DNA from: Sulfurospirillum halorespirans DSM 13726
Lineage (GTDB): Bacteria; Campylobacterota; Campylobacteria; Campylobacterales; Sulfurospirillaceae
Length of the DNA: 64,000 nucleotides
Direction of reading: 5' to 3'
NCBI RefSeq assembly: GCF_001723605.1
Contig: NZ_CP017111.1
Location: forward strand, 1,426,001-1,490,000
In this document: positions 2,195 to 63,541 of the stretch, piece by piece
Layout: every line of letters starts with the position of its first letter
Position numbering within the stretch: the stretch's first letter is position 1
Program-made: the position numbers and the translations under genes
Notes under the pieces: model-generated
What the model saw: only the letters and a program-made list of their open reading frames with translations
Told to the model about the DNA's origin: nothing
The model's database searches: none

Positions 2195-3195
2195 GCAAAA
2201 AGATACTTCTCTCTCACGGAGGTGGCGGTGAAGAGACCCAAAACCTTATTAAAGAACTTTTTTTTAAACATTTTGACAATGAAATTTTACTGCGCATGGA
2301 AGATGCCGCAAGTCTGGTGATGGGTAGCACTAAAATCGCTTTTACCACCGACTCGTTTGTGGTTTCGCCGCTTTTTTTTAAAGGTGGGAACATCGGAAAG
2401 CTCGCCATTGCTGGAACCGTAAATGATCTTTCGATGATGGGCGCAAAACCCAAATACTTGACCTGTTCGTTTATGATCGAAGAGGGTTTTGAGTACGCAA
2501 AGCTGGAAGAGATCGTCATCAGTATGCGTGATGAGATGGCAAAAAGTGGCGTTAAAATCGTCGCAGGCGATACGAAAGTGGTACCTCGTGGTGGCGTTGA
2601 TGGGCTGTTTATCAACACCGCTGGCATTGGTGAGATTCAGTACGAGGGCATTTCAGCGCATAACTTAACGGAGGGTGATGTCATCATTGTCTCCAATGAA
2701 GTGGGCAATCACGGTGCGTGTATTTTAGCGACACGCGAAGAGATTGAGTTGGAGAGCGACCTTCAAACCGATTGTGCCAGTTTATGGAAGCCCGTGGAAG
2801 CGCTCATTAACGCAGGTGTGAAGATTCATGCGCTGCGTGATGCAACCCGTGGAGGGCTGAGTGCTGTTTTGAATGAATGGGCGGAGACATCCAAGGTGTG
2901 CATTGAAGTGGACGAGGCGAAAATCCCTGTGGCGCAAGAAGTCAAAGGGGTATGTGAGCTTTTAGGATTTGAGCCTTATGAGTTTGCTAATGAGGGAACG
3001 ATGGTCATTTGCTTGCCTCAAAGCGAAGCGCAAAAAGCACTTGAGGTGCTTCAAACATTCCCTGAAACCGCCAAATGTGCATTTATCGGAAAAGTTACCA
3101 CTGCCTTTACATGTAAAGTTATTTTACACACGCCATGGGGCTCGGAGCGCTTTTTAGAACCGCCCAAAGGTGAGTTACTTCCAAGGATCTGTTGA
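2191..3195 (+). CDS. hypE: Carbamoyl dehydratase HypE
   Basis: HypE converts a C-terminal thiocarboxamide (delivered by HypF) to thiocyanate and donates cyanide to the HypCD complex. I chose GTG 2191, which overlaps the hypD stop and gives SKKILLSHGGGGEET, the expected N-terminus; an AAAGGAG site lies 12 bases upstream. The 334-residue protein has the PurM-like ATP-binding fold features (GGGGEE, RMEDAAS, TTDSFVVSP, AGDTKVV, RDATRGGL). It ends exactly in PRIC, the invariant C-terminal tetrapeptide whose Cys is modified. An intact C-terminus suggests an active enzyme. A copy of the TTACATGTAA palindrome lies at 3107-3116, read as TCK. Confidence 0.97.
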   Translation: MSKKILLSHGGGGEETQNLIKELFFKHFDNEILLRMEDAASLVMGSTKIAFTTDSFVVSPLFFKGGNIGKLAIAGTVNDLSMMGAKPKYLTCSFMIEEGFEYAKLEEIVISMRDEMAKSGVKIVAGDTKVVPRGGVDGLFINTAGIGEIQYEGISAHNLTEGDVIIVSNEVGNHGACILATREEIELESDLQTDCASLWKPVEALINAGVKIHALRDATRGGLSAVLNEWAETSKVCIEVDEAKIPVAQEVKGVCELLGFEPYEFANEGTMVICLPQSEAQKALEVLQTFPETAKCAFIGKVTTAFTCKVILHTPWGSERFLEPPKGELLPRIC

Positions 3196-3536
3196 TGCAC
3201 GAATTTTCGATCGTTACGGCACTGTTAGAGATGTGTGAAAAAAATGCCAAAGAAAACAATGCCACTAAAATCACCAAAGTGGAGATCAAAATCGGTAAGC
3301 TCAGCGGCGTTGAGCCCTATCTTTTGGAAACCGCGTTTGATACGTTTAAAGAAGATGGGATTTGCGCTGGGTGTGAATTTGTCGTTCATCTGCAAGAGAT
3401 TGTGGTGCATTGCGAAAGCTGTCACACCGAAGCAACACTTACACAAAATGAGTTTGTTTGCCCTACATGTAACAGTACGGATCTTCGCGTGATTGATGGT
3501 GAAGAGATGTACCTGATGCGTCTTGAAATGGAGTAA
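3195..3536 (+). CDS. hypA: Hydrogenase nickel metallochaperone HypA
   Basis: A 113-residue HypA. The start is set at ATG 3195, which overlaps the hypE stop by one base; an in-frame TTG one codon upstream is rejected because HypA needs His2 right after the initiator Met (MHEFS) to bind nickel. The zinc site is two CxxC pairs (CESC and CPTC) at about residues 74-77 and 91-94. Its job is nickel delivery with HypB to the hydrogenase large subunit and, in some relatives, to urease. It is the last gene of the hyp operon. A one-mismatch copy of the dispersed palindrome lies at 3463-3472 over the second CxxC. Confidence 0.96.
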   Translation: MHEFSIVTALLEMCEKNAKENNATKITKVEIKIGKLSGVEPYLLETAFDTFKEDGICAGCEFVVHLQEIVVHCESCHTEATLTQNEFVCPTCNSTDLRVIDGEEMYLMRLEME

Positions 3537-3559
3537 AGAGAGGCTAAGAGTCTGTAATG

Positions 3560-3565
3560 TATAAT
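3560..3565 (+). promoter_or_regulatory. -10 element (TATAAT) upstream of the GNAT gene
   Basis: An exact TATAAT lies in the 61-bp gap after hypA, 33 bp before the chosen start of the acetyltransferase gene. Housekeeping promoters in Campylobacterota are usually recognised by a good -10 with a weak -35, which fits. It suggests the acetyltransferase/HAD pair is transcribed separately from the hyp operon. Confidence 0.5.
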
Positions 3566-3597
3566 CAGTGATTACATTAACTTTATTAAGGATGCTA

Positions 3598-4734: not shown

Positions 4735-7288
4735 AAATCTCAAACGGCGCTTCTAGGGTTCGTTTGATAATGTTCATCGGCGTCTTGAGGGTGTCTAAAA
4801 TGAGATGCGTCTCAATCTTTGGATCACTCACTGAGCCTGTGACATCGACATTGGTCGCAATCCGCTTATCTTCCCCTAAAATAATGCCACCCACGATCGG
4901 AATCATATCAATCGCGTTACTAAAGCTTTTGAGCGTCTTAATTTGGAGTTGAAGATTGAGAGTGTCTTTCGCCAAATCCACTCGCCCTTTGCCTAAAATG
5001 TCGGCACTTTTACCTCTGAGTTGAAGATCTGTAATGTTCATCGCCTCTTTGGTTTGGTTAAATTCCACATAGCCATTGTCCACAAAATAGCCCTCTTGAT
5101 TAAAGCTAGGGTCACTAAAGACAAGCAGCGAAGGGATGGTGTTGATCGTTGCCATCAGGTTATTGAAAAATTTTAGATCTTTGATGTAGGTTTGGTGCAT
5201 AATGAACGTGCCTTTCATCGTGTCCGCATCGGTACCATCAATGTTGAGTGAAAAATCGCCTTTATGAAAGTAGCGTTTGTTAAACAGCGCATTGATCATA
5301 TCAGCATCAAGCGCAGTTCCATTGATACCAAGATTGCCCTTGCGTGTTTCATATTCAAATGTCGATTTGCCTCGCTTGGAAGTGAGGTGAAGCTTGTCTT
5401 TGAACAGATTCATCGTATAGCGCTCGCTCAGAAGTGTTTTGTTACTTTCCATGTCAATAAAAGAGGAGTTTTCGCCAAAAAGAGTCACTTTAATGGGCAT
5501 ATCCAAAGGCGCATCATTGTGAGGCATTGAGATGTTAAGATCTTTTACATGTAAGGTTATCTCTTTGTCAAAATGAAGCGAAAGTTTGGTGTTTGTAGTA
5601 CTTGCATCGAGTGTTTTGGTATTGGTCGTGAGAGCTATATCAAAATTGCGCACAGGTTCACGATTGTCTAAAAATGGGGTGGTAACGTTTTGCAGATTGA
5701 TCTTTGCATCAAAATCTTCAAACGTTTTGGTTTGCACACTCACCGCCCCTTCGCTAAGGTTGGCATCGTGCATAAACGGTGAAAAAGGAGCGATTTTAGT
5801 AAGGTTGCTAAAGAGAAATTGGTTATTCTCTTTGGAAAATAACAGTGTGGCATCAAGGCTGGGAAGCGTCATTTTAGTGATGTTGTTTTCAATGGCAAAC
5901 GAGGCATTAAGATCAGGAAGATTGGCGATTTGTAGAAGTTGCGTACCGCTAAAATCAAGCAACAAGGCATTAATGTCGACCAATCCATCAAAGCGATTCT
6001 TCCTTGCATCAAAGAGTCCTGTGGCGTTAATATCAAACAGGTTTTTATAACGCAGATTTGTATTTTCAAGGGTGATTTTAAAATTATCAAGCCGAATCTC
6101 ACCATAATTGGTGGACATAGGAACACCGCTGAGCGTAAAGTCACTTGGGGAGAGTTTAAAGGTTCCTGAGGCATTGAGGTCGTACGGTAAAAAACGAATG
6201 TCAAGTTTGATATGTGCATCCGTTTTACCCGAAGTTTGGGTAATGGGCACATCGATTTTAAACGCATGCAAAATGTTATGTATGGGCGCATCAAGCTTGG
6301 ATGTAGCGTTTAGATCAACAACGATTCCCGTACCTTTGTTGATCAAATTATAGATAAACACATCGGCTTTTTCAATGGGGCGTTTTTCATAGGTGGGCTC
6401 ATGAATGTCAAACAGGAGTTTATCCTCTTTAAATTCGATGCCGATCTCTTTAACAAACCCTGGTGTCACATTGGGTGCAAAAGTGACGGTTGCATTTTTC
6501 ACCGTTGCTGCCGCGTGGAGTTGCATTGGATAATAATCAAACGTTTTTAGATCGAACTTGCCTTCAATGAAGTGGAGAAGATACGATTCGCCGACGATGT
6601 TTTTATCGATCCAGTCTTTGGCTATCGGGTCTAGCTCAACCTGTGTGACCACAAAATCCATCAGATCTTTAAGCTCTTTATTGGTAAAAGGTTCGCTTTG
6701 GAGATGATAGGTTAAAAGGGTCTCTTTAAGGTCCAAAAGGGCAATGCCTTTGAGCCCAAATGTCTCAAAATTGCCTTCAAACGTATGGTTTTTGGTCTTA
6801 AAATCCATACGCGCTTTTCCGTTTACATGTAAAGCATAATCTTTCAAAAATGCCTCTTGAATCTCAACCTCGATATTCCACTTCTCAATGGGTGTAATGA
6901 TCAGATTGACACTTAAATGTTTGCTGTCAAATTTAAAGGTGCTCTCTTCGTAATGCAAGGAGAGCGTTTCATTGGCATAATGGATCAGCTCAATGCTGAT
7001 TTTGCTAAAAAATTGGTTCAAATACGGGAAGTTTTTAATAAGTTCTGCAATCTCTTCAATCGACGTGTCCGTCTGTGTCTCTTTTTGAATATCAAGAGTT
7101 TGGATACTAACAATCAATTTTTTATCTAGTTTAATATATAATTGATCAATTTTTATCGTCGGTAAGCTTATTTTATCGATCGAAATGCCATTTATTAGGG
7201 TTGCCATTAATGCTACGAAAAAAAGAACCATGAACAGTAAAAATATCCAGATCTTCCTAATCGTATGTGATGTTGCTTTCATAATCAT
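4727..7288 (-). CDS. AsmA/YhdP-like membrane-anchored protein (DUF3971 type)
   Basis: An 853-residue protein with one N-terminal membrane segment (about residues 11-33) followed by a long beta-rich periplasmic part full of short repeats such as 'LDIN ATG LFDA' and 'NITDLQLRGKSADILGKGRVDL'. The C-terminal part (GKGRVDLAKDTLNLQLQIKT ... IPIVGGIILGEDKR ... VTGSVSDPKI) is the typical AsmA_2/YhdP ending. Such proteins bridge inner and outer membranes and are implicated in phospholipid transport. Two in-frame ATGs (7288, 7282) are possible. Its 5' end overlaps the divergent mltG start. Two copies of TTACATGTAA (5545, 6823) lie inside and are read LHV. Family assignment good, precise function inferred. 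Confidence 0.8.
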   Translation of the reverse strand: MIMKATSHTIRKIWIFLLFMVLFFVALMATLINGISIDKISLPTIKIDQLYIKLDKKLIVSIQTLDIQKETQTDTSIEEIAELIKNFPYLNQFFSKISIELIHYANETLSLHYEESTFKFDSKHLSVNLIITPIEKWNIEVEIQEAFLKDYALHVNGKARMDFKTKNHTFEGNFETFGLKGIALLDLKETLLTYHLQSEPFTNKELKDLMDFVVTQVELDPIAKDWIDKNIVGESYLLHFIEGKFDLKTFDYYPMQLHAAATVKNATVTFAPNVTPGFVKEIGIEFKEDKLLFDIHEPTYEKRPIEKADVFIYNLINKGTGIVVDLNATSKLDAPIHNILHAFKIDVPITQTSGKTDAHIKLDIRFLPYDLNASGTFKLSPSDFTLSGVPMSTNYGEIRLDNFKITLENTNLRYKNLFDINATGLFDARKNRFDGLVDINALLLDFSGTQLLQIANLPDLNASFAIENNITKMTLPSLDATLLFSKENNQFLFSNLTKIAPFSPFMHDANLSEGAVSVQTKTFEDFDAKINLQNVTTPFLDNREPVRNFDIALTTNTKTLDASTTNTKLSLHFDKEITLHVKDLNISMPHNDAPLDMPIKVTLFGENSSFIDMESNKTLLSERYTMNLFKDKLHLTSKRGKSTFEYETRKGNLGINGTALDADMINALFNKRYFHKGDFSLNIDGTDADTMKGTFIMHQTYIKDLKFFNNLMATINTIPSLLVFSDPSFNQEGYFVDNGYVEFNQTKEAMNITDLQLRGKSADILGKGRVDLAKDTLNLQLQIKTLKSFSNAIDMIPIVGGIILGEDKRIATNVDVTGSVSDPKIETHLILDTLKTPMNIIKRTLEAPFEIFK

Positions 7289-8168: not shown

Positions 8169-8204
8169 TAACCTTTATTTAATAAAGCGAAATAAAGAAA
8201 CTAA

Positions 8205-10487
<2,283 letters not shown>

Positions 10488-10519
10488 TTTTTTGATTTAC
10501 ATGTAAAGAAGGAGTCTCT

Positions 10520-17998: not shown

Positions 17999-18061
17999 AA
18001 AAGCTAGATTAGGTTTTACATGTAATTTTAAAAGTGCTATTTTTTTCAATTATCTCTGCTC

Positions 18062-19521: not shown

Positions 19522-19549
19522 GCTTTACATGTAACACTTTTGTGACGCA

Positions 19550-20530: not shown

Positions 20531-20551
20531 ACAGAGCGTTACATGTAAAAG

Positions 20552-21157
20552 TTAGCGTAGAAAGTTTTTAATGCCTGTAAAGATGAGTTGCGCCGAAAGT
20601 GCTGAGAGCACAAGCCCTGTAACTTTACTAAAAACGATCAGTCCTGTTCGCCCGATCAGTCGTTCGATGTGTCCAGAGAGATAGAGCAACACGCCAATGC
20701 TGAATATTGCCCCTAGCAGTGCGCTTGAACCAAGCACCAAGTCTTCAATACCCTCCATATCGGCACCCATAACCATCAGCGCACCCACGGTTCCAGGTCC
20801 CACGGTGACGGGAATTGCCAAAGGGACAACGGCATGTTTGAGGATGTCAGCTTTACATGTAGGCTCAGCATTGACATCTTTTTGCACCAAATCAACAGCG
20901 GTGAGAAACAAAAGTGCACCCGCACCAATGCGAAACGCATCCAGCGTTATGCCAAAAAGTTCAAAAATGTATTTGCCAAAAAAGAGAATAATCATACAGC
21001 TGATCGCAATCGCCAAGGTTACTTTGATCGCAAGGCGTCTTTTGTCACTTTCACTGATCCCTTTGGTCATCGACAAAAAGATGGTCGTGACAAAAAAAGG
21101 CGTCATAATAAAAAAGAATTTGACATAAATCGCAAAAAAAGCAGAGAGGTGAATCAT
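20552..21157 (-). CDS. MarC family integral membrane protein
   Basis: A 201-residue UPF0056/MarC protein with about six membrane spans. Motifs typical of the family are FFVTTIFLSMTKG, FRIGAGALLFLTAVDLV, PLAIPVTVGPGTVGALMV and the C-terminal QLIFTGIKNFL. The name comes from the E. coli mar locus but the family has no established transport substrate. AAGGAG and a TATAAT lie upstream on its strand. Two copies of the dispersed palindrome flank or enter it (exact at 20539, TTACATGTAG at 20853). Confidence 0.85.
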   Translation of the reverse strand: MIHLSAFFAIYVKFFFIMTPFFVTTIFLSMTKGISESDKRRLAIKVTLAIAISCMIILFFGKYIFELFGITLDAFRIGAGALLFLTAVDLVQKDVNAEPTCKADILKHAVVPLAIPVTVGPGTVGALMVMGADMEGIEDLVLGSSALLGAIFSIGVLLYLSGHIERLIGRTGLIVFSKVTGLVLSALSAQLIFTGIKNFLR

Positions 21158-21222: not shown

Positions 21223-21828
21223 ATGAAAAAAGAGATCCTTTACCTAACCGAATATTTAGCCAAAAGTGATAGCGAGCAAGCCAAAGCTTTTTACGAACTC
21301 TTGGTGCAAACCCTCGTCACTTTCGAGCTTTATACGCCTACCAAATTTACGCAAGCGCAGATTAGCGCGCTGATGGCACGTCAAGGCTTTGGTGCACCTT
21401 CTTCTTATGATGTGGGCGTTAAAGCACTTGATGCTGCATTGGAGCAAACGCTTCCAATTCCACTGCAAGAGGCAAAAAAAAGCCTTTTTATGACCCTTCT
21501 CACGGTCAATTTTCCCAAGAAAAAAAGCTTCTTATCGGTCTCGTTAGAGCTCTTTCTCTCTCAACTTGAACCTGTGGAAAAGAGCATTTATGAGAACCTT
21601 TTAGCCTACGTTTCAGGGCTCAATCGCGCCCTTGCACTCTTTTTTGTTTTGGGCAAAGAGGAGGCTTCTATTTTTACCCCAGAGCGTTTAGTTGCGTTTG
21701 GAGACGCTTTACATGTAAAGCTTGTGGAGCTTGTTTTTAATGAAGAAGAGAAAGCACTTTTAAGTCAAGGACTCAAAGAGTTATTGGGCGTTTACCTGAG
21801 CCTTTATGGAAAATATCTTTACATATAA
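21223..21828 (+). CDS. Hypothetical protein, 201 aa, mostly helical
   Basis: An intact gene with a GGAGG ribosome site just upstream of ATG 21223. I do not recognise the family. The protein has no signal peptide or clear membrane span; it looks alpha-helical, with LTEYLAKSDSEQAKAFYELL at the N-terminus and leucine-rich stretches such as YENLLAYVSGLNRALALFFVLGKEEAS. The TTACATGTAA copy at 21709 is the full 16-bp palindrome GCTTTACATGTAAAGC and codes for LHVK. Codon use matches the neighbours, so recent transfer is not suggested. It may be a lineage-specific cytoplasmic protein. Confidence 0.75.
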   Translation: MKKEILYLTEYLAKSDSEQAKAFYELLVQTLVTFELYTPTKFTQAQISALMARQGFGAPSSYDVGVKALDAALEQTLPIPLQEAKKSLFMTLLTVNFPKKKSFLSVSLELFLSQLEPVEKSIYENLLAYVSGLNRALALFFVLGKEEASIFTPERLVAFGDALHVKLVELVFNEEEKALLSQGLKELLGVYLSLYGKYLYI

Positions 21829-22555: not shown

Positions 22556-22599
22556 TAATGTTTTCACAGGGAGAAAAGTGTTTTACATGTAAAGAGTGA

Positions 22600-22628: not shown

Positions 22629-23306
22629 TTATTTAAATAAAATAGAACCTAAACGAATCATATTTGACCCACACGCAATCGCGAGTTCAAAATCATCACT
22701 CATTCCCATAGAGCAGTATTTTGCACCCTGATTTTGGAGTGATTCAAAAATTTTATGCGTCGTTTCAAAACTTTTTTGAATGATGGCCCTCTCTTCGCTA
22801 TGCGCACCAATACTCATGACGCCTTTAAGCTGAAGATGTTTACATGTAAGCGCGATTTGCTCATACACTTCGAGCGCCTCTTCAGGCATAACACCCGCTT
22901 TTTGCTCTTCATAGGCACTGTTGATTTGAAGCAAAACGTTCATCGTTTTATGCTTTACATGTAAACGTTTATCGATCTCTTGCGCGAGTTCTAAGGAGCT
23001 TAGCGAGTGCATTAATGAAGGCTCTAAGTCGATGAGCTGATTGATCTTATTGGTTTGTAAACGCCCGATAAAATGCCATTCGAGTGGAAGATGTTCGAGG
23101 GCATGAACTTTATCACTCATGTCTTGGATTTTATTTTCTCCAAAACAGCGTTGCCCTGCGTTGTACATCGCTTCGATCATCGAAGGATCAGCACTTTTAC
23201 TCGCAGCAACAATCTTCACAATCAGGTGTTGATCGACACTCAAACGCGCTTTTTCAACGCGTGTGAGAATTTCATCCAGTGTGGTTACAAAATTTTTAGT
23301 TTCCAT
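22629..23306 (-). CDS. yggS: Pyridoxal-phosphate homeostasis protein (YggS/PLPBP family)
   Basis: A 225-residue PLP-binding protein with a fold like alanine racemase N-terminal domain. The PLP lysine is in KIVAASKSADPSMIEAMY, followed by FGENKIQD, WHFIGRLQTNK, and the C-terminal SMGMSDDFELAIACGSNMIRLGS phosphate loop, all family hallmarks. It balances free PLP and amino/keto acid pools. The start overlaps rseP by 11 bp. Two TTACATGTAA copies (22840, 22955) lie within it, read TCK and LHV. Confidence 0.93.
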   Translation of the reverse strand: METKNFVTTLDEILTRVEKARLSVDQHLIVKIVAASKSADPSMIEAMYNAGQRCFGENKIQDMSDKVHALEHLPLEWHFIGRLQTNKINQLIDLEPSLMHSLSSLELAQEIDKRLHVKHKTMNVLLQINSAYEEQKAGVMPEEALEVYEQIALTCKHLQLKGVMSIGAHSEERAIIQKSFETTHKIFESLQNQGAKYCSMGMSDDFELAIACGSNMIRLGSILFK

Positions 23307-24354: not shown

Positions 24355-24896
24355 TAATGGGTTCCTTTTTTGGTATAGCCGATGATGTATTCATAGCCAG
24401 AGTAAAGTGTCAGTGCCACAGCTGCCCACAAAAGTAGGTCTGCAAAAGGCCAGTTCATCATTAAAAAACCAATGGCGATCATCTGAAGAACGGTTTTGAC
24501 TTTGCCTGCCATACTCGCAGCAATGTCTTTGCCTTCGCCCATCGCAGCTACACGAAGTCCTGTGATGAAAAATTCACGCGTGAGGATGAGAAAAATCGCC
24601 CAAGGGTTGGCTCGATCAATCATCATGAGCCCTAAAAAAGCGGCTAAGGTGAGCATTTTATCTGCCAATGGATCTAAAATAGCACCGAGCTGTGTTTTTT
24701 GATTCCAGTTGCGTGCGATGTAGCCGTCAAAAAAGTCCGTCGCACTCGCTATCACGAAAATGAGTGTCGCAAAGTAGTCTATCCAGCTTACATGTAAACC
24801 TGAAAAGAGACTCAAATCGCGATTGACTAAAAAAATAAACATAAGGGGCGCTAAGGCGATTCGCATGCTTGCAAGTGCGTTAGGTAGGTTCATCAT
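24354..24896 (-). CDS. pgsA: CDP-diacylglycerol--glycerol-3-phosphate 3-phosphatidyltransferase
   Basis: A 180-residue membrane enzyme that makes phosphatidylglycerol phosphate. The CDP-alcohol phosphotransferase motif DG(x)2AR(x)8G(x)3D(x)3D is visible in FFDGYIARNWNQKTQLGAILDPLADK. Four to five membrane spans are likely. The start ATG overlaps the stop of the enoyl reductase gene (ATGA); a second ATG follows directly. A TTACATGTAA copy at 24788 is read LHV near the N-terminus. Confidence 0.94.
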   Translation of the reverse strand: MMNLPNALASMRIALAPLMFIFLVNRDLSLFSGLHVSWIDYFATLIFVIASATDFFDGYIARNWNQKTQLGAILDPLADKMLTLAAFLGLMMIDRANPWAIFLILTREFFITGLRVAAMGEGKDIAASMAGKVKTVLQMIAIGFLMMNWPFADLLLWAAVALTLYSGYEYIIGYTKKGTH

Positions 24897-38438: not shown

Positions 38439-39875
38439 ATGGATCAAATGGTTTTAAGTGTGGTACATCTATGTTTTATTTTAGGAATCGGGTTTTATTT
38501 TATCACCGCAATGCAGTGGTACAGCTATAGGCTTGAACGCATTTTCTTCCACTACAACCGTTACGACTGGCATCTTTACTTCTTTGCGCTTCCATTAATG
38601 GGTTATTATTTTTTAGAAGGCATTTTTCTCTACGCGTTTGTTGCACTCTTTTTAGCACTGCTGTTTGTTTGGCAAAAAAAGATGGACAAAAAATTGGTCT
38701 GGACGGCACGCGTCAAACGCTTTTTCCTCTTTTTAGTGTTAGCAACCTTGTTTCAAGATCTGTTATGTTTAATGCTTGCCTCATGTTTCAAACTGGGCAT
38801 CATCATTCCTTTGGCGGTGGCTCAATGTGCAAGTATGGTGTACGAAAAGATCCTTTTTGAAGGGTTTAAAAAAGAGGCACAGCACAGATTGATGAACAAT
38901 CCAAAGCTCAAAGTGGTTGCCATTACTGCCAGTTACGGAAAAACGAGCATTAAAAACTTTCTGGCACAGATTTTAAGCAGCCAACTCAAGGTCTACAAAA
39001 CGCCTCGCAGTGTCAATACTCTTGGAGGCATCATCAAAGACATTAATGAATCACTACCCGATGTATGCGATGTTTACATCGTTGAAGCAGGAGCACGTAT
39101 GCGAGGTGACATTGATGAGATCGCGCGACTGGTTCATCCGCATATCGCCGTGGTAGGGTGCATTGGAGAACAGCATATTGAGTACTTTAAAACGCTTGAA
39201 AACATCCGCAATACCAAAATGGAGATGATCAACTCAACGCGACTTGAGAAGGCTTTTGTGCATGAGAGTGCCAACATTAAACCAACCTCGATGATCCTCT
39301 CATTTGGCTCTGAGTTGAGCGATATTGAAGCCTCATTGCAAGGGCTCAGCTTTTCTATGATGCTTGATGGCGTTAAAGAGCACTTTACATGTAAGCTTTT
39401 GGGTGCGTTTAATGCTATCAATATTGCCGCAGCGATTCACGTTGCACGCGCGTTGGGGCTGGAACTTCCTGTGATTAAAGAAGCGGTTGCAAATCTGCAA
39501 GGCGTGGAGCATCGTCTGCAAAAAATTGAGGCAGGTGGAAAGCTTATTATTGATGATAGTTACAATGGTAATTTAGAAGGCATGCTGAGTTCATACGATC
39601 TTGTTGCAACGCATGTGGGGCGCAAAGTGATCATCACGCCAGGTATTGTTGAAAGCAGTGAAGAGGCCAATGCCGCTCTAGCGCAAAAAATAGACGCTGT
39701 TTTTGATCTGGTGATCCTCACAGGCAAGGCTAATGTTGAGATCTTAGATTTACATGTAAAAAAAGCGCAGAAGATTATACTCAGTGATAAATCAAAACTC
39801 CAAGAGACCTTGGCGGAACAAACGCACGCGGGAGATGTGATACTTTTTTCGAATGATGCTCCAAATTTTATCTAA
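38439..39875 (+). CDS. murF: UDP-N-acetylmuramoyl-tripeptide--D-Ala-D-Ala ligase with N-terminal membrane domain
   Basis: A 478-residue Mur ligase. The first about 145 residues are unusual: four to five hydrophobic segments (LCFILGIGFYFITAMQWY, LYFFALPLMGYYFLEGIFLYAFVALFLALLF, FFLFLVLATLFQDLLCLML, IIIPLAVAQCASM) take the place of the soluble MurF N-domain. The ATPase motif is ITASYGKTSIKNF, followed by the carbamylated-lysine region and IIDDSYNGNLEGM in the C-terminal domain. It adds D-Ala-D-Ala to the nucleotide precursor; ddl is nearby. Palindrome copies at 39385 (TCK) and 39750 (LHVK). Confidence 0.85.
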   Translation: MDQMVLSVVHLCFILGIGFYFITAMQWYSYRLERIFFHYNRYDWHLYFFALPLMGYYFLEGIFLYAFVALFLALLFVWQKKMDKKLVWTARVKRFFLFLVLATLFQDLLCLMLASCFKLGIIIPLAVAQCASMVYEKILFEGFKKEAQHRLMNNPKLKVVAITASYGKTSIKNFLAQILSSQLKVYKTPRSVNTLGGIIKDINESLPDVCDVYIVEAGARMRGDIDEIARLVHPHIAVVGCIGEQHIEYFKTLENIRNTKMEMINSTRLEKAFVHESANIKPTSMILSFGSELSDIEASLQGLSFSMMLDGVKEHFTCKLLGAFNAINIAAAIHVARALGLELPVIKEAVANLQGVEHRLQKIEAGGKLIIDDSYNGNLEGMLSSYDLVATHVGRKVIITPGIVESSEEANAALAQKIDAVFDLVILTGKANVEILDLHVKKAQKIILSDKSKLQETLAEQTHAGDVILFSNDAPNFI

Positions 39876-42053: not shown

Positions 42054-43258
42054 AAATTTTAGTCTTAAATGCGGGTAGTTCTTCTGTTAAATATCAACTC
42101 TTTAATATGGCAAATAATGCCGTTCTCGCCAGTGGTATGATTGAGCAAATCGGCGAAAAAGAGTCGATGGCTAAAATTAAGTACAAAGATGCGGATGATG
42201 TTGAGCATAAACGAGAGCAAAAATGTGCCATTCCTGATCATGATGAAGCACTCAAATGGATGAGTCAAGCGTTGATTCATTCGGGTGTGATTAAAGATCT
42301 CAATGATCTTGATGGCATCGGGCACCGTGTTGTTCAAGGAGGCGCTTCGTTTCAAGAACCTGCGATGGTCAATGAGTATGTTATGTCGGAGATTGAGCGT
42401 CTGATTCCTCTAGGACCCTTGCACAATCCTGGACATTTAGCAGGAATGAGAGTCGCGGTGCACCAAAGCCCCAATGTGCCTCAAGTGGCCATTTTTGACA
42501 CTGCTTTTCATTCAACATTGCCAAAATACGCTTACATGTACGCGATTCCTTACAAATATTATGATGATTTACGCATTCGTCGTTATGGTTTTCATGGAAC
42601 ATCGCATCGCTACATTGTGAAAGAAGCCGCCAAATACCTGAAGCAAGATGTCAATACCCTCAATGCCATTACGCTTCACTTAGGCAACGGTGCGAGTGTT
42701 GCTGCCATTGAAAATGGTAAAAGTGTGGACACTTCTATGGGCTTAACACCGCTTGAAGGACTCATTATGGGAACACGCAGTGGCGATATTGACCCTGCTA
42801 TTTTGTTCTATTTGGCACGAAAGCGTGGGCTGACACTTGATGATCTTGATAAAATGCTCAATAAAGAGAGTGGTTTAAAAGGGATATGCGGAAGCAACGA
42901 CATGCGAGAAATTACGCAAATGGCAGAAGAGGGCGATGAAAAAGCTCAGCTTGCGCGCGATATGTTTAACTACCGTCTGAAAAAGTACATTGGCTCTTAC
43001 AGCGCGGTACTTGGGCGTGTCGATTGCATCGTTTTTACAGGCGGAATTGGTGAAAATGACAGTGGGGTTCGCCTCAAGTCGTGTGAAAATTTAGAAAATT
43101 TTGGCATTAAGATTGATCCACTGCTCAATGAAATGCGCTCAAGCGATATTCTGCAAATTAGCGCACCAGATAGCAAGGTCAAAGTATTAGTTATCCCTAC
43201 AAACGAAGAGTTGGAAATCGCAATGGAAACGATGGAGATGATCGAAAAACATCACTAA
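42050..43258 (+). CDS. ackA: Acetate kinase
   Basis: A 402-residue acetate kinase starting at GTG 42050, which overlaps the pta stop. Signatures are VLNAGSSSVKYQLF, FDTAFHSTLP, RRYGFHGTSHRYI, LHLGNGASVAA, and FTGGIGEND. It makes ATP from acetyl phosphate. The near-match TTACATGTAC lies at 42532. A strong terminator hairpin built from two palindrome copies follows 7 bp after its stop. Confidence 0.97.
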   Translation: MKILVLNAGSSSVKYQLFNMANNAVLASGMIEQIGEKESMAKIKYKDADDVEHKREQKCAIPDHDEALKWMSQALIHSGVIKDLNDLDGIGHRVVQGGASFQEPAMVNEYVMSEIERLIPLGPLHNPGHLAGMRVAVHQSPNVPQVAIFDTAFHSTLPKYAYMYAIPYKYYDDLRIRRYGFHGTSHRYIVKEAAKYLKQDVNTLNAITLHLGNGASVAAIENGKSVDTSMGLTPLEGLIMGTRSGDIDPAILFYLARKRGLTLDDLDKMLNKESGLKGICGSNDMREITQMAEEGDEKAQLARDMFNYRLKKYIGSYSAVLGRVDCIVFTGGIGENDSGVRLKSCENLENFGIKIDPLLNEMRSSDILQISAPDSKVKVLVIPTNEELEIAMETMEMIEKHH

Positions 43259-43265: not shown

Positions 43266-43299
43266 GTTTACATGTAAAGAAAAATCTTTACATGTAAAC
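43266..43299. terminator. Terminator made of two inverted TTACATGTAA copies
   Basis: The arm at 43266-43280 (two-sided extension of the motif, GTTTACATGTAAAGA) pairs perfectly over 15 bp with 43285-43299, with AAAA as the loop, followed by CTTCTTTATT. The two motif copies (43268-43277, 43288-43297) are 20 bp apart. Each copy is also self-complementary, so a cruciform or two small hairpins are alternatives. It lies between convergent ackA and yqeY. Confidence 0.7.
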
Positions 43300-43892: not shown

Positions 43893-44597
43893 ATGAGAGT
43901 TCTTACATGTAGCTTTGTAGCTGTTTTGGCCTTAGCGGGTTGCTCTGCACATCCTGCGAGTCCTCAAATTAGCATGAAAGCGCCTGTTTATGTCGATGAA
44001 ATTCCTTCGCGCGTGAATGAAAATGTGACCCCTAACCCTGGTAGTCTTTTTGGTCAAGGGGATAATCCTCTCTTTGCCGATCTTAAAGCAATGCACGTCA
44101 ATGATGTCGTAACCGTGACGATTACAGAGAATACAGCCCAAAGTTCTACAGGGAAAAAAACACTTGAAAAAGAGAACTCAAGCAATTTGGGTGCGGGCAT
44201 CACAACTGCCGCTGGAGGTGTGGCTGGTAATGCAGCGAGACAACTCAATAAAGTGGGCAATATTGGCTTTACTGCAGGCTCAAGTAACTCTTTTACGGGA
44301 TCAGGAACAAACACCCGAAATGAGAGTTTTTCCACGACGATTTCAGCACGTATCATTAAAATTTTAAATAATGGCAATTATTTTATTGAAGGGAGTCGTG
44401 AGTTATTGATCAACGGCGAGAAACAGATGATTCAAGTGAGCGGTGTGATTCGCCCGTATGATATTGATCAGTACAATAACATTGATTCTAAATATATTGC
44501 TGAAGCGAAGATTCTCTACAAAACAGAAGGCGATATTGATCAAACGAACACAAAGCCATGGGGTACCAAATTTATGGAAACCATTTGGCCATTTTAA
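43893..44597 (+). CDS. flgH: Flagellar L-ring protein FlgH
   Basis: A 234-residue lipoprotein of the outer-membrane L ring. ATG 43893 is chosen because GGAG lies 5 bases upstream and it opens directly into a lipoprotein signal (RVLTCSFVAVLALAGC, lipobox Cys18). Motifs NPGSLFGQGDNPLFADLKAMHVNDVVTVTITENTAQSS and VSGVIRPYDI are typical of FlgH. No other flagellar genes are adjacent. Its signal peptide codon run contains a near-copy of the palindrome (TTACATGTAG, 43903). Confidence 0.95.
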   Translation: MRVLTCSFVAVLALAGCSAHPASPQISMKAPVYVDEIPSRVNENVTPNPGSLFGQGDNPLFADLKAMHVNDVVTVTITENTAQSSTGKKTLEKENSSNLGAGITTAAGGVAGNAARQLNKVGNIGFTAGSSNSFTGSGTNTRNESFSTTISARIIKILNNGNYFIEGSRELLINGEKQMIQVSGVIRPYDIDQYNNIDSKYIAEAKILYKTEGDIDQTNTKPWGTKFMETIWPF

Positions 44598-45070: not shown

Positions 45071-45098
45071 ACCCTTGCCTTACATGTAAGGCAAGGGT
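45071..45098. terminator. Bidirectional terminator, perfect 28-bp palindrome centred on TTACATGTAA
   Basis: ACCCTTGCCTTACA (45071-45084) is followed directly by its reverse complement, then TTTTGATT on the plus strand. The centre is an exact copy of the dispersed motif (45080-45089). It sits between convergent genes (the hypothetical gene and ctsF) and can end transcripts from both sides. GC-rich outer arms give a strong stem. Confidence 0.8.
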
Positions 45099-49035: not shown

Positions 49036-49837
49036 GGATCATCCCTAGACTAATGCCAGCCATTTCAAGGTATTTTACATGTAAAGCATTACTCTTAACA
49101 ACAGAGGGTTTATGCTCATCATAATACTCTAAAATTTCAAAAAGTTTATAGAGAAGTTTGTTGATCGTTCTCAAATTTCCACCAGTAAGTTTTGCAATTA
49201 ATTTATAGTGTTTATCTCTAAAAAGATTCAAAAATTCAAAACGATTATGAAACAGGAGTTTTTTTTCGATATAGGTTTTAATCTCATTTTGTGATGCATT
49301 GTCTATCTCAATCGTCTCCCAAATGCGCGTTTGGAAGTAATCTTTTGCGAGTAAATCCTCTTTTTCTGTTTTATGAACCGTAAACAAAAATTTAAATAAA
49401 CGAGAATCCGCCATCAGACGAATTTTCTCGATTAAATCGGTTGGATAAAGCTGCGCCTCATCAATTAATACCGTAATGGCTTGATCCGTAGACGTAATAT
49501 GTTTACTAAGCAATGCTAAAAATTCATTGTAATTGGAAAACTCAGGAGATGTTCTTCCAAAAATATGTTCATAAAGCGCTTTAATGAAGACTTTCTCTTC
49601 GAAAAAAGGACGTGGGAAAAAAATAATACGTTTTTTTGGCTTTAAGTCATTGTAAATTTTTTGGAGCAAAAACGTTTTACCTGTGCCTGGTTTTCCATAA
49701 AACAAGATCAGCTTTAAAGGCTTATCTAAGGTTTGCACCAATTTGTCATAGGTTATTGCCGATTTGTCCAAATTCACATAATCAAAGATTTCACCATCCA
49801 CAAAGATAGTTTTAAGATCGCTGTATTGGTTATTCAT
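49028..49837 (-). CDS. ctsP: AAA ATPase (ExeA/MshM family, CtsP-like)
   Basis: A 269-residue ATPase of the ExeA/MshM type. ATG 49837 (MNNQYSDLKTIF) follows AAAGA and overlaps the secretin stop by 8 bp; TTG 49858 is possible. Walker A is FYGKPGTGKTFLLQKI, Walker B is VLIDEAQLYP, and TGGNLRTINKLLYKLFEIL is the typical C-terminal sensor. Such proteins help secretin assembly or act with a peptidoglycan-binding partner. The TTACATGTAA at 49075 (LHVK) is the only exact motif copy in the whole operon. Confidence 0.8.
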   Translation of the reverse strand: MNNQYSDLKTIFVDGEIFDYVNLDKSAITYDKLVQTLDKPLKLILFYGKPGTGKTFLLQKIYNDLKPKKRIIFFPRPFFEEKVFIKALYEHIFGRTSPEFSNYNEFLALLSKHITSTDQAITVLIDEAQLYPTDLIEKIRLMADSRLFKFLFTVHKTEKEDLLAKDYFQTRIWETIEIDNASQNEIKTYIEKKLLFHNRFEFLNLFRDKHYKLIAKLTGGNLRTINKLLYKLFEILEYYDEHKPSVVKSNALHVKYLEMAGISLGMIHA

Positions 49838-54909: not shown

Positions 54910-56235
54910 TTATAAAATATAGCGGCTGCTATCTTCACTCTCGACGATGGCATCAAGCTTTTCATGTACAAGTTCTTTGCTTACATGTAAGGTTTCACCT
55001 GCGTGTTCATCGGCGGTGTAACTGATGTCTTCTAGGACTTTTTCGATAATCGTATGAAGCCTTCTCGCTCCTATATCTTCAGTCTTTTCATTGGTGATTT
55101 GAGCGATTTTTGCAATCGACGCAATGGCATCATCCTCAAAAATAAGCTCTACACCTTCCGTTTTTAAAAGGGCTTGGTATTGACGTAAAAGGGAGTTTTT
55201 GGGTTGTGTCAAAATTTTGTAGAGAATCTCTTCTGTGAGTGAGCTGAGTTCCACGCGCAGTGGAAAACGACCTTGAAGTTCTGGAATGAGGTCGCTTGGT
55301 TTACTCACATGAAATGCACCTGCTGAGATAAAAAGAATGTGATCGGTTTTAATGCTTCCGTATTTGGTATTGACATCACTGCCTTCCACAATCGGCAAAA
55401 GATCACGTTGAACGCCTTCTTTGCTTGGATCACTACGGTGTGATTGTGAAGCGCTCACAGCAATCTTATCGATCTCATCAATGAAAATAATGCCGCCATT
55501 TTGAGCTCTCTCTCTGGCTTCACTTTTAACGGCTTCCATGTCCAAAAGTTTTTCGCTCGCTTCGATTTTCAGTGCTTCTTTGGCGTCTTTGACTTTCATC
55601 TCTTTTTTGATGTTATTTTGACCTGAACCTAAAATCTTGATAAAAGACTCTTGCACTTTGATCATTTCAGGAGGAAGCGAAGAATCGCCCAAATCACTGC
55701 TGTTTTGAGAAATTTCCACTTCAATTTTCAGATCATCCAGTTCACCATCACGAAGCCTTTGGCGCATCTTCTCAGAACTTTTTTCATAATCCGCTTTTTT
55801 CTCTTCGCTCACACCTTTTGGAAGAGGAGGAAGCAGTTTCTCGATGATCGTTTTTTCTACATGTAAGGCTATATCGTCTTGGTTTTTCTCTTTGTGTTCA
55901 GCTTTAACAAGGTTAATAGACGCCATCATCAAATCGCGTACCATCGACTCAACATCACGTCCAACAAAGCCCACTTCCGTGTATTTACTCGCTTCCACTT
56001 TCACAAAGGGTAATGAGAGCATTTTTGCCATACGGCGCGCAATTTCTGTTTTTCCCACACCGGTTGAGCCGATCATCAAGATGTTCTTGGGCATCACCTC
56101 TTCTGCCATTTCACCTTCAAGCTGGAGTCTTCTGTAACGATTGCGAAGGGCGATGGCGATGGCTTTTTTAGCATTAAACTGTCCGATGATATACTCATCC
56201 AAATAGGCAACGGTTTGTTTGGGTGTTAAATTCAT
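54910..56235 (-). CDS. hslU: ATP-dependent protease ATPase subunit HslU
   Basis: A 441-residue AAA+ unfoldase of the HslUV protease. N-terminal [17 protein letters not shown], Walker [14 protein letters not shown], Walker [12 protein letters not shown], the intermediate domain (about 110-240) and the C-terminal tail ending in ...SRYIL that docks into HslV are present. The start overlaps hslV by 4 bp. Palindrome copies at 54981 (LHV) and a near copy at 55858. Confidence 0.96.
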
Positions 56236-57247: not shown

Positions 57248-57667
57248 CTATTTCATCGTTTTTGGAAGTGGGGCATTTTTCAGCTTTTCACCGTGAAATG
57301 CATCAATGCCACCACTGAGTTGGGCGATATTGGAAAAGCCCATTCTACGTAAAATAAATAGCATTTGCGTTGTGCGCCCACCGATATGACAGTAAAAAAT
57401 CAAAAGCTTACCGGAGAGCTTTTTCAGCTCATCCATGTGTTGATGAATGGTCGACGTTGGTAAAAGCATGTCTGTGCCTTTGATGCTTGACTCAGAATAC
57501 TCATACATCTCTCTGATGTCAATCAGCACAAAATCAAGTCTCTTTTGAGCTCTTAGATTTAGCATTACATGTAACTCTTCGCCACTGACTTCGCAGCTTT
57601 TTGTTACTGTTTGAACTAAATTCATCATTGCTTCTTCACTCCATTCATCGTTAATTGGCTCATCCAC
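57248..57667 (-). CDS. Rhodanese-domain protein
   Basis: A 139-residue single rhodanese domain. The active-site loop is YCHIGGRTTQM, with Cys as the persulfide-carrying nucleophile. ATG 57667 lies 5 bp after argG with no good ribosome site; ATG 57628 (MMNLVQTV) has GGAG 10 bases upstream and may be the real start. It might move sulfur for thiolation or detoxify cyanide/thiosulfate; no partner is indicated. The palindrome at 57565 is read LHV. Confidence 0.85.
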   Translation of the reverse strand: MDEPINDEWSEEAMMNLVQTVTKSCEVSGEELHVMLNLRAQKRLDFVLIDIREMYEYSESSIKGTDMLLPTSTIHQHMDELKKLSGKLLIFYCHIGGRTTQMLFILRRMGFSNIAQLSGGIDAFHGEKLKNAPLPKTMK

Positions 57668-57672
57668 TGAGA

Positions 57673-58902: not shown

Positions 58903-58921
58903 AATACGAATCCTCACAGAA

Positions 58922-58927: not shown

Positions 58928-59058
58928 GAATTGCGTGATGGTAGCGCAAGTTTGTAAAAACTTTGCTTATGCTTTAGGCAGGATTTTACATGTAAAGTCA
59001 AAAAAGCAAGTTTAAATATTCTTTTGATAGAATGGGCGTTAAATCCTAAGGATGGGGT

Positions 59059-60715: not shown

Positions 60716-61424
60716 CGTTCAAGAATTACAAAAAACGATTAAAAAAACGCAGATTATCAAAGGGGTTTCGCTTGATGTCAAAAGTGGCGAAGTCGTAGGA
60801 CTTTTAGGCCCCAATGGTGCGGGTAAAACAACGATGTTTTATATGATCTGTGGGCTTATTCCACCGACTTCTGGAACGGTCTATTTTGACAATCATGATG
60901 TGACCAAAATACCTTTACATGTAAGAGCAAAACTGGGCATTGGCTATCTTCCTCAAGAATCAAGTATCTTTAAAGATTTGAGTGTAGAAGAGAATATTAT
61001 GCTTGCTGCTGAGATTGTCTATCCGAACAAAGAAGACGCTATGAAGCGTGTGGAAGAGCTATTAAATCTGCTCAACATCGAGCCGATTCGCAAACGCAAT
61101 GGCGTAAGCCTGAGCGGTGGCGAGAGACGTCGTTGTGAAATCGCACGTTCCCTTGTCTTGCAACCTAAATTTCTTTTACTGGATGAGCCTTTCGCGGGAG
61201 TCGATCCTATCGCAGTCTCCGATATTCAAGGCATTGTGCAAGAGCTTGCAAAACTTGGTATTGGTGTTTTGATTACCGACCATAATGTGCGCGAAACACT
61301 TGCTATTTGCGATAGGGCGTATGTGCTCAAAGATGGCGCACTTTTAGCCAGTGGAAGCAGCGATGAAGTTGCTCAAAACAAACTGGTCAAAACCTACTAT
61401 CTTGGCGAAGATTTCAGGTTTTAA
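60702..61424 (+). CDS. lptB: LPS export ABC transporter ATPase LptB
   Basis: A 240-residue ATPase powering LptB2FG lipopolysaccharide extraction. Walker A GPNGAGKTTMFYMI, Q-loop GYLPQESSIFKDLSVEEN, signature LSGGERRRCEIARSL, Walker B FLLLDEPFAGVDP and H-loop ITDHNVRETL are all present and match LptB closely. As in many bacteria it is followed by rpoN. A palindrome copy at 60915 is read LHV. Confidence 0.95.
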   Translation: MHTLNVQELQKTIKKTQIIKGVSLDVKSGEVVGLLGPNGAGKTTMFYMICGLIPPTSGTVYFDNHDVTKIPLHVRAKLGIGYLPQESSIFKDLSVEENIMLAAEIVYPNKEDAMKRVEELLNLLNIEPIRKRNGVSLSGGERRRCEIARSLVLQPKFLLLDEPFAGVDPIAVSDIQGIVQELAKLGIGVLITDHNVRETLAICDRAYVLKDGALLASGSSDEVAQNKLVKTYYLGEDFRF

Positions 61425-61442
61425 CCCACAAGGAGATTGTTT

Positions 61443-62714
61443 TTGAAACTTAGGGTTTCGGGTACACAAACCACCAAACAAAAGTTCTCCTCAACGCTTC
61501 GAGGTTGGCTTCCCATACTCCAAGCCAATCTGGATAGTTTGGTGGAGACACTGGAACCGTTTGTGCAAGAAAATCCCTTTATCAGTGTCAAGTCAGGCTC
61601 CGAAACACCCGATAAACGTTTTGAAAAGAAAAACTTTTTCGCAGAAGTGGCTAAAACATCGGTTTCCGATACGATTGAAGCGCTCACCTTAGATAAAAAA
61701 TCACTCTTTCAAGCCCTTAATGAACAGATCAATCCACCGCTTTTTCCTACTGAAAAATCCCAACGAATTGCCTATGAAATTATCGAAAATATCAACTCTG
61801 AGGGGTATTTTGAAGCAGAATCTTTAGCTGAAATTGCCAAAAAACTGGATGTCAAAGTGGATGAAGTGGAAAAGATACGGCAACGTTTTGCATATCTTGA
61901 ACCTTTGGGCATTGGCGCACTTGATGTGAAAGAGACGTTTTTATTTCAGCTTCAAGACCTCTCTTTAGACAATGAACTCTATGCGATGACAGAAAAGCTC
62001 ATCATTAACTTTGAAAATATCGAATCTTTTGGCAAAGAGCCTCTTTTTCACGAGGCGCTAAATATCATCAAACGCTTTCGTAATCCTCCCGCGATTGACT
62101 TTTTGGAAGATGAAAAAGAGGTCATTCCCGATATTTTTATCTATGATTTAGCTGGTGCCATTGAAGTGCGGATCAATGATGCCTATTATCCTGAAGTGAT
62201 TTTGGATACCGAAGGGCTGGATGTTGACCATAGTTTTGTCTCTCAAAAAATCAAAGATGCCAAAGATCTTATTGACGCCCTTGAAATGCGCAAAGCAACG
62301 CTGTATAAAATCGGTTTGATGATCGTGGAGTATCAGTATGACTTTTTCTTTGGGAAAGCGATAAAGCCTATGAAACTCAAAGATTTAGCCGATGATTTGG
62401 GGCGCAATCCTTCAACCATTTCACGCGCCATTGCAGGTAAATACCTTTCGTGTTCCCGTGGCGTCATCCCTATGAAACAGTTTTTTGCCACAGCAGTGGA
62501 GGAAGACATCTCTAACAGTGCAATTAAGGAGTATATGATTGAGTTGGTAAAAAGTGAGAGCAAGCTCAAGCCACTCAGTGATATTAAACTCTTGGAGTTG
62601 ATCGAGGGAAAATTTAACATTAAAATGGTGCGACGAACGATTACAAAATACCGCCAGCAGTTTAATATCGCCAGTTCATCCGAGCGTAAAAAACTCTACA
62701 CGCTCAAATTTTAA
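61443..62714 (+). CDS. rpoN: RNA polymerase sigma-54 factor RpoN
   Basis: A 423-residue sigma-54. TTG 61443 (MKLRVSGTQTTKQKF) is chosen because AAGGAG ends 7 bases before it; TTG 61437 is too close to that site. Region I (LRGWLPILQANLDSLVETLEPFVQENPF), the core-binding domain and C-terminal DNA-binding part are present; the RpoN box reads VRRTITKYR near the end. In this phylum it directs flagellar class 2 genes. Its gene ends in a 4-bp overlap with the convergent J-domain gene. Confidence 0.95.
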   Translation: MKLRVSGTQTTKQKFSSTLRGWLPILQANLDSLVETLEPFVQENPFISVKSGSETPDKRFEKKNFFAEVAKTSVSDTIEALTLDKKSLFQALNEQINPPLFPTEKSQRIAYEIIENINSEGYFEAESLAEIAKKLDVKVDEVEKIRQRFAYLEPLGIGALDVKETFLFQLQDLSLDNELYAMTEKLIINFENIESFGKEPLFHEALNIIKRFRNPPAIDFLEDEKEVIPDIFIYDLAGAIEVRINDAYYPEVILDTEGLDVDHSFVSQKIKDAKDLIDALEMRKATLYKIGLMIVEYQYDFFFGKAIKPMKLKDLADDLGRNPSTISRAIAGKYLSCSRGVIPMKQFFATAVEEDISNSAIKEYMIELVKSESKLKPLSDIKLLELIEGKFNIKMVRRTITKYRQQFNIASSSERKKLYTLKF

Positions 62715-63541
62715 GCGATTTTAGCATCCACATGTCTGAAGTGCATTTTGAGCATTTCATAGGCATTTTGAATCTCTTGAAACTTCGCCACATACTTTAC
62801 ATGTAAATCCCCATCGTAAAGCCCACAACTGTCTGGATGGTACTTTTTAACCAAGGTTAGATAATTTTTTCGAATCATCTCAAAAGAGTCTTCCACCCGA
62901 CATCCTAGAATACCAAAATACTCTTCAAGCAAGGAGAAAAGGGCATTATGACGACTTCGTTTGGCGCGTTTTGCCACAAAACTTCTCTTATAGGCTAAAA
63001 ACTCTTCCATCGCATAGGAAAACTCTACAAAGCAACCAAAGAGCTCTTTTTGCTCCAGTAGTTTTTCCAAAAGATGTACTGTCACATCAGAGTTTGGATA
63101 AAGCGTAATCGTGCCATTTTTTGGGCGAATTCTGACCAAATGGTCTTTAAAATAACTTTTGAGATACGAAGCAAAAAGGGTGTTGTGGGAACCTAGATGA
63201 AACACAACCGCATAACTGTCCTCAATCACGAGGTTAATACTCATTTTTTGAAGCACTTGATTTGATTTTAAAAGAGAGATTTTGATGGTTTTATCGATGG
63301 CATTTTCGATGATATGAGCGTGTTCTGCATTGCCCGTTTTACGCAGATAGATTTTACCAATCAGTTTTAGAAAATAACGACGTTGCACCAACTCGTCTTG
63401 TTCTTTGAAGATAATCATTTTCTCTTTGCGACCGATCTTTTTTTGAAAATTTTTATCGGCAATATTTTGCAAATAGTAAAAGGTTTTTGAATCTTCTTGA
63501 ATCGTAAGCGCAAGCATATCATGAGAGAGTGAAAGGTGCAT
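62711..63541 (-). CDS. Protein with C-terminal DnaJ domain
   Basis: A 276-residue protein. The last about 65 residues are a J domain with the HPD motif in LTLVKKYHPDSCG (helices FGILGCRVEDSFEMIRKNYL and KYVAKFQEIQNAYEMLKMHF). The first about 200 residues are not a domain I recognise and show no membrane span. A C-terminal J domain recalls DjlA, but DjlA's N-terminal anchor is absent. It may recruit DnaK to a specific client bound by the N-terminal part. A palindrome copy at 62797 (LHVK) lies inside the J domain. Confidence 0.8.
   Translation of the reverse strand: MHLSLSHDMLALTIQEDSKTFYYLQNIADKNFQKKIGRKEKMIIFKEQDELVQRRYFLKLIGKIYLRKTGNAEHAHIIENAIDKTIKISLLKSNQVLQKMSINLVIEDSYAVVFHLGSHNTLFASYLKSYFKDHLVRIRPKNGTITLYPNSDVTVHLLEKLLEQKELFGCFVEFSYAMEEFLAYKRSFVAKRAKRSRHNALFSLLEEYFGILGCRVEDSFEMIRKNYLTLVKKYHPDSCGLYDGDLHVKYVAKFQEIQNAYEMLKMHFRHVDAKIA

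Follow-up and report, generated by a model that had tools for sequence, protein, structure and literature searches.

The 64,000-nucleotide stretch of the Sulfurospirillum halorespirans DSM 13726 genome analysed here (the window) is densely populated by a 10-base palindrome, TTACATGTAA. The explanation we tentatively favour, with less than even confidence, is a methyltransferase-linked highly iterated palindrome (HIP) that is under selection site by site and may act as a methylated self mark for DNA uptake. The iterated palindrome itself is real, of the HIP kind in form and apparently undescribed in Sulfurospirillum, and its link to a HpyIM-type methyltransferase without a nuclease of its own is strong but not exclusive. 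In the open-access literature, judged largely by title and with most subscription journals outside the survey, we found no description of TTACATGTAA as an iterated palindrome in Sulfurospirillum and no paper on an uptake sequence in this genus, and the matches listed for natural transformation contained no fitting title. Nothing there ran contrary to an earlier note on the window, made from the letters alone, which was not aware of a description in the lineage.

TTACATGTAA is a perfect palindrome with ACATGT as its core and CATG at its centre. Thirty exact copies lie between positions 3107 and 62806 of the window, where dinucleotide shuffles (n = 100) give an expectation of 0.08 and none of the 100 shuffles reached 30; the runner-up 10-mer palindrome has four copies. 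The hexamer ACATGT occurs 42 times, 30 of them inside the 10-mer. One-mismatch copies number 13, and in eight of these the outermost letter alone is changed. These counts agree with the earlier note on the 30 copies far above expectation and on the 30 of roughly 42 hexamers; its figure of around ten one-base variants gives way to the 13 counted. The genome-wide count that it had proposed as a check, and that would have refuted it by coming out near expectation, extends the enrichment well beyond the window. G000, the host genome, is a single contig of 3,029,840 bases with 1,496 copies (about 500 per megabase, Mb) versus four of the reversed word, and 200 kilobases (kb) taken from ten places contain 112 copies versus 0.37 under a third-order Markov model, with 5–16 in each 20-kb stretch. 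Chance or base composition as the origin of the copies is ruled out by the shuffles, the reversed-word count and the Markov model.

The weak extension of the 10-mer that had been noticed in the window proved real: over 154 sites the consensus extends to CTTTACATGTAAAG, with T as the adjoining letter in 224 of 308 half-sites, C as the one beyond it in 148 of 308, and weakly A/T-rich flanks. The 154 exact copies in 280 kb of G000 are accompanied by 25 outermost-letter variants versus 1.8 expected, 16 of them T to C; inner one-letter variants (four inner half-positions) stay at background, 14 versus 12.1 expected. Every one of the 19 sites aligned between G000 and G008 (88–97% identity) is retained, as are 19 of 21 when the comparison is reversed. 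Around pta, with the expected retention taken from class-matched 10-mers, eight enzyme-bearing species at 76–80% DNA identity keep 7–9 of 10–11 sites versus 1.2–2.7 expected, G004 (90% identity) keeps 10 of 11 versus 6.4, and G018 (74% identity, no enzyme found) keeps 7 of 11 versus 1.0. Without class matching, the kept sites are 4 of 10 in G001, 2 of 7 in G021 and 1 of 6 in G002 and, on short contigs, 2 of 5 in G022 and 5 of 7 in G003. Individual sites, genic and intergenic alike, are under selection or under a restoring process of equal effect; the conservation of single sites across species directly supports the earlier suggestion that selection is on the whole palindrome.

With genes placed by a simple custom gene finder, 142 sites divide into 95 genic ones (391 per Mb) and 47 intergenic ones (2,254 per Mb), a 5.8-fold higher intergenic density. 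Two frames dominate in genes, reading Leu-His-Val (62 sites) or xTT-ACA-TGT-AAx (30), and three sites are read with a stop. Intergenic sites occur in tandem (24; 2,173/Mb), divergent (11; 2,197/Mb) and convergent gaps (10; 3,419/Mb); a role in termination only is ruled out by the presence of sites in all three gap types, though convergent gaps hold somewhat more. Spacing is near random overall (coefficient of variation 0.95 versus 1.01 ± 0.08 simulated), with an excess of close pairs (16 gaps below 100 base pairs (bp) versus 8.4 expected), a deficit of gaps of 500–1000 bp (14 versus 27.4 ± 4.6) and no inter-site gap above 8 kb (1.3 expected).

All 24 searched Sulfurospirillum genomes hold TTACATGTAA, in 49–1,496 copies. 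Among 398 genomes of the order, at least 19 copies are present in 13 of the 20 remaining members of the host's family and in 9 of 45 genomes of family f17, which we read as Sulfurimonadaceae, and the remaining 309 genomes have 11 copies or fewer each. At least two families thus gained or retained the palindrome. Two plasmids hold few copies: pSDCE1 of S. diekertiae has four copies versus 17.8 expected at chromosomal density and the near-identical pSDIE1 has four versus 17.0, a scarcity compatible with any model of acquired DNA.

The sole D12 adenine methyltransferase found in G000 (METHYLTRANSFERASE) is P0001, a protein of 327 amino acids (aa) encoded outside the window (G000:C1:2740748-2741728). 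It scores 143.8 bits against PF02086 (cut-off 22) and has a DPPY motif, D208-P-P-Y211, that is invariant across 14 sequences. Its closest structural match, a weak one, is Escherichia coli Dam (template modelling score, TM, 0.39), and the PDB contains no sequence relative. Thirteen other species have orthologues (57–94% identity), which adjoin the same transglutaminase-like gene in seven of seven species examined (G000, G004, G008 and G013–G016); in G006 the enzyme is present as pieces at a contig end. A midpoint-rooted tree of 43 sequences, shown without support values, groups P0001 and its 13 orthologues in a single clade, every genome of which exceeds 360 copies per Mb. The neighbours in G000, G014 and one of G013 comprise transglutaminase-like, MerT-like, response regulator, histidine kinase and urea carboxylase genes; Pfam searches of the neighbours at these loci, some small ones remaining unassigned, revealed no nuclease gene beside a P0001-type enzyme.

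Nearly the whole of P0001 aligns, at 47–48% identity, to a protein of genome G238 encoded behind two reading frames that we take to be cysE-like (Pfam Hexapep) and iceA2-like. This protein in an iceA-like locus can be read as HpyIM, the CATG-specific enzyme. In two papers, hpyIM adjoins iceA and is termed CATG-specific (PMC13340068, PMC4687069). With CATG in the middle of the palindrome, the enzyme chosen by its distribution has its predicted target inside the palindrome, and by this homology P0001 is predicted to methylate the A of the central CATG in TTACATGTAA. Eco57I-type enzymes (PF07669) were rejected as a partner, as matches occur in 23 of 24 genomes with no pattern seen, and N4/N6 beta-class methyltransferases (PF01555) were not found in G000 or in the enzyme-bearing G008, G013, G014, G016 and G021. 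Plasmid pSDCE1 encodes a divergent D12 methyltransferase of its own (L315 1692-2732; 48% identical to P0001), and on pSDIE1 (L376) a D12 methyltransferase is annotated in shortened form.

Within the genus, enzyme and sites are closely, though not invariably, associated. Four genomes (G009, G010, G011 and G020) keep the flanking transglutaminase-like gene and the response regulator with no methyltransferase between them, and a tblastn search (E 0.1) detected no remnant. They form two sister pairs (G009 with G020, G010 with G011) in different parts of the pta tree. Their sites have decayed to background: those kept are 0 of 10 in G009, 1 of 9 in G010, 0 of 6 in G011 and 3 of 11 in G020, with background expectations of 2.5, 0.95, 0.65 and 3.0, respectively. 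Mismatches at orthologous sites in G009 are spread over all positions; decay confined to position 2, earlier suspected for the enzyme-less genomes, did not hold up when orthologous sites were compared. Because two stretches overlap by 8 kb, some rows of that comparison, and some G009 sequence in the tally that had raised the suspicion, count twice. Across the 19 Sulfurospirillum genomes that are at least 90% complete, density is 152–512 per Mb in the 14 with an enzyme and 19–389 per Mb in the five without (p = 0.0024, with no phylogenetic correction and partly rounded genome sizes). In f17, a full-length homologue is present in six of the nine genomes with at least 19 copies versus 4 of 36 others (Fisher p = 0.0016, subject to the same limits). 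Two incomplete assemblies, G001 and G019, yielded no homologue, and the G001 contig ends inside the region of the usual locus.

The sites also differ with the enzyme. G002 and G021 carry a divergent enzyme (48–50% identity) 18–25 kb from the usual place, and ACATGT is enriched in both (39 versus 7.0 and 133 versus 22.8, respectively). Position 2 is often G in G021, where one-off variants number 26 versus 0.7; the same is seen weakly in G002 (4 versus 0.2). Flanks are looser with the divergent enzyme, clearly in G021 and weakly in G002. More generally, some relatives vary the flanks while ACATGT stays constant: G021 admits TG and CG before ACATGT, and the f17 genomes G194 and G339 have many CT besides TT. 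Lineage dialects are thus present in G021, weakly in G002, and in f17.

G000 has little ACATGT beyond the palindrome (21 copies with no TT half versus about 61 expected); this depletion was dropped as a mark of the system, since it also occurs in the palindrome-free G328 (10 versus 20.9). In 16-kb stretches of G174, G328, G334 and G060 (L122, L124–L126), which carry a homologue and few or no palindromes, ACATGT stands at about 0.2–0.4 of its composition expectation. Sixty viral loci of enzyme-carrying phages, 1.03 Mb in all, contain no copy of the palindrome, a result that is uninformative because the phage hosts are unknown.

In the explanation that we favour, P0001 would methylate the A of CATG within TTACATGTAA, and the methylated extended palindrome would be read as a self mark in natural transformation, which is the weakest step. 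Fragments bearing the methylated palindrome would then be taken up or recombined preferentially, and this preference would spread and maintain the sites. The logic would match that of CtsM in Campylobacter, except that the site there is short and common and the one here long and rare. One form of it is a kin signal in which a nuclease-less CATG-core methyltransferase and a 10–14-bp palindrome are co-maintained by biased uptake of methylated DNA, with dialects following the enzyme and decay following its loss; we put this forward as a conjecture about which we have considerable doubt. Uptake is a possible role, and the one we prefer because of the CtsM precedent in the same order, the presence of transformation genes, the close pairs and near-random spacing, and the sparse plasmid copies. 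Close pairs and near-random spacing are a trait of uptake signals and fit a per-fragment signal better than a chromosomal ruler; the 500–1000-bp deficit fits the opposite. Of the family's 44 genomes, 41 (G000 among them) have ComEC, and the window holds type II secretion/pilus-like genes. Methylation-dependent DNA uptake via CtsM is described for Campylobacter in PMC8627207 and PMC10046745.

Several observations weigh against this explanation. G018 (99% complete, 13 contigs) keeps its sites, has few inner variants and yielded no D12 enzyme. Also missing from it are the transglutaminase-like neighbour and any close orthologue of the large gene that comes next, and the locus was not found at the starts of all 13 contigs or the far ends of seven; the missing block may be either an assembly gap or a deletion. 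Outside the genus, seven genomes have copies and no homologue at E 1e-10: G111 (567), G144 (340; a complete genome), G266 (265), G305 (194), G373 (87), G306 (22) and G362 (19). No D12 enzyme of any kind was found in G111, G144, G306 and G362; of the other three, G305 shows only a sub-threshold trace and G373 a fragment, and the D12 enzymes of G266 belong to a different type. The reverse also occurs: 7 of 10 g19 genomes have a homologue, yet six of those carriers hold no more than 23 copies, and in many genomes of other families, including a Helicobacter-like group, a homologue (45–52% identity) is present and the palindrome is not. The enzyme is thus neither strictly necessary nor sufficient; inside the genus it follows the palindrome well, but it is not the full explanation. 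The earlier idea of a methylation-related palindrome like HIP1 is supported in part by the enzyme's distribution in the genus and f17 and set back by G018, G144, G111 and the other exceptions. The deficit of 500–1000-bp gaps hints at some spacing rule. ComEC is also kept in species with decayed sites (G009, G010 and G020, with a partial match in G011), so that its loss is not supported as the cause of the decay. Finally, we know of no uptake signal that is a palindrome, and the perfect palindrome TTACATGTAA does not provide an oriented signal.

The same coincidence of enzyme and sites would also serve an epigenetic or architectural site, a serious competitor that we nevertheless judge rather unlikely. 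Here the enzyme would mark the palindrome, and a reader of hemimethylated or methylated sites would organise, replicate or segregate the chromosome (compare SeqA/Dam and CcrM), with no role in uptake. The extension to CTTTACATGTAAAG with weakly A/T-rich flanks is as for a bound protein, and the occurrence of sites in all ten sampled stretches, the shortage of 500–1000-bp gaps and the lack of gaps above 8 kb point the same way; the near-random spacing and the excess of gaps below 100 bp are unfavourable to a spacing function, and the reader protein is a postulate. A sequence-specific DNA-binding protein might instead be the driver, with or without uptake, the methyltransferase being a frequent companion lost along with it. 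This would suit the extended consensus as well as G018, G144 and G111, where the palindrome occurs in the enzyme's absence and inner variants are not clearly in surplus. We consider it improbable in view of the two sister pairs, where absence of the gene and decay of the sites coincide, and of the loosened G021 flanks, and no candidate protein is at hand, none having been searched for. The abundant nucleoid protein raised in the earlier note stays conceivable: spacing is near random with surplus close pairs, and gaps of 500–1000 bp are few and those above 8 kb absent.

A palindrome with a predicted inner methyltransferase core and surplus variants at its outer letters alone also recalls Elhai's cyanobacterial model, in which a ratchet of methyl-directed mismatch repair would create and keep palindromes around methylated CATG as a by-product with no selected function. 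Surplus outer-letter variants and the ratchet are described for HIP1 in PMC4390886. This origin is very improbable here, since Epsilonproteobacteria are reported (PMC2147049, PMC2734928) to be without several mismatch-repair genes, and site conservation at 76–80% identity would seem beyond a weak ratchet; the mismatch-repair role raised in the earlier note loses ground on the same literature. A restriction-modification relic or addiction, in which an unseen nuclease would punish unmethylated or variant sites, could draw on the CATG restriction-modification locus to which HpyIM is reported to belong in Helicobacter and on the scarcity of bare ACATGT in G000, but it is the least probable of all, with no restriction gene beside the enzyme in G000 and G014-type loci, restriction sites being normally avoided rather than enriched, and the same scarcity in G328.

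Comparison with known systems places TTACATGTAA closest in form to HIP1 (GCGATCGC) and the alternate HIPs of cyanobacteria. Shared features are a short palindrome that is far above expectation across the genus and takes variant forms in other lineages, and surplus variants at the outer letters; an accompanying methyltransferase whose target is a shorter inner sequence is a further parallel, with the target predicted and exceptions known in Sulfurospirillum. The phylum and the sequence differ, the Sulfurospirillum enzyme is a D12 adenine methyltransferase of the HpyIM type, mismatch repair is reported as incomplete in its lineage, and its palindrome shows background-level inner variants and strong per-site conservation. 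With the DNA uptake sequence (DUS) of Neisseriaceae and the uptake signal sequence (USS) of Pasteurellaceae it has in common hundreds of copies per Mb, a higher density between genes and lineage dialects; in contrast to both, the Sulfurospirillum word is palindromic and methyltransferase-linked, and an uptake role would be an extrapolation. DUS pairs can form hairpins behind genes, and some paired copies of TTACATGTAA are likewise able to do so. The CtsM/RAATTY system of Campylobacter jejuni belongs to the same order, Campylobacterales, and has an adenine methyltransferase marking DNA and transformation genes present; RAATTY differs in being common, with a reported figure of about 28,000 sites per C. 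coli genome, and needs no enrichment. Homologues in genus g28 (30–33% identity, about 370 aa) would correspond to CtsM, judging from size and spread rather than sequence comparison; the ctsM gene is reported as 1,095 bp. With the HpyIM/M.NlaIII-type CATG methyltransferases, P0001, of predicted specificity, shares its near-full-length identity, PF02086 and DPPY, but no iceA/NlaIII neighbour was seen in Sulfurospirillum. From type II restriction-modification its locus differs in that no cognate nuclease was found among the neighbours in G000, G014 and one of G013.

What HIP1 does has been a puzzle for decades, and TTACATGTAA offers a further, independent iterated palindrome in another phylum. 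Sulfurospirillum has cultivated species and provides natural experiments, namely species with enzyme and sites, species without the enzyme and with eroded sites, and species whose enzyme differs and whose flanks are looser, so that the purpose of such palindromes becomes directly testable. If the uptake reading were true, methylation-dependent transformation would extend from Campylobacter to a rare, enriched signal; if the kin signal were true, HIP palindromes and uptake sequences, two puzzles, would be joined in one system.

The 30 copies in the window were located by exact match with no strand assigned (strand '.'), intergenic labels following the gene-finder placement and conservation the cross-species alignment. 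Those recorded from the exact match alone are at 3107..3116, 5545..5554, 6823..6832, 21709..21718, 22840..22849, 22955..22964, 24788..24797, 28237..28246, 28293..28302, 54981..54990, 57565..57574, 58986..58995, 60915..60924 and 62797..62806, and intergenic copies are at 10497..10506, 18016..18025, 19525..19534, 20539..20548 and 22583..22592. The copy at 31803..31812 is the same in 12 of 16 aligned species and reads TCACATGTAA in G009; that at 35711..35720 is mostly the same genus-wide and reads TTACATGTCA in G021. Copies at 37706..37715 and 37983..37992 are the same in most aligned enzyme-bearing species, as are those at 39385..39394 and 45080..45089 (intergenic) in most aligned species and that at 39750..39759 in part of the genus. 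The copy at 38381..38390 is exact in few species and elsewhere often TTACATGTCA; that at 49075..49084 is the same in most aligned species, with TAACATGTAA/G in G009, G020 and G011. Behind ackA (43268-43297), two copies 20 bp apart form an inverted repeat with a left arm at 43268..43277 and a right arm at 43288..43297. In several species the arms change in step, the left to TTACATGTAG and the right to CTACATGTAA, and stay complementary, so in species with the paired change the pair probably doubles as a hairpin. A one-mismatch search placed the eight end variants, likewise unstranded ('.'), at 3463..3472 and 55857..55866 (CTACATGTAA), 9276..9285 and 42532..42541 (TTACATGTAC), 20853..20862 and 43903..43912 (TTACATGTAG), 30898..30907 (ATACATGTAA) and 34920..34929 (GTACATGTAA).

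Two further loci were noticed among the relatives. In the f17 genome G194 (L120 7028-11735), an AccI-type restriction-modification pair adjoins a D12 methyltransferase that is itself beside tsaD. G002 (L012 1-1422) contains a CRISPR-like array of 22 identical 36-nucleotide repeats at a spacing of 66 nucleotides.

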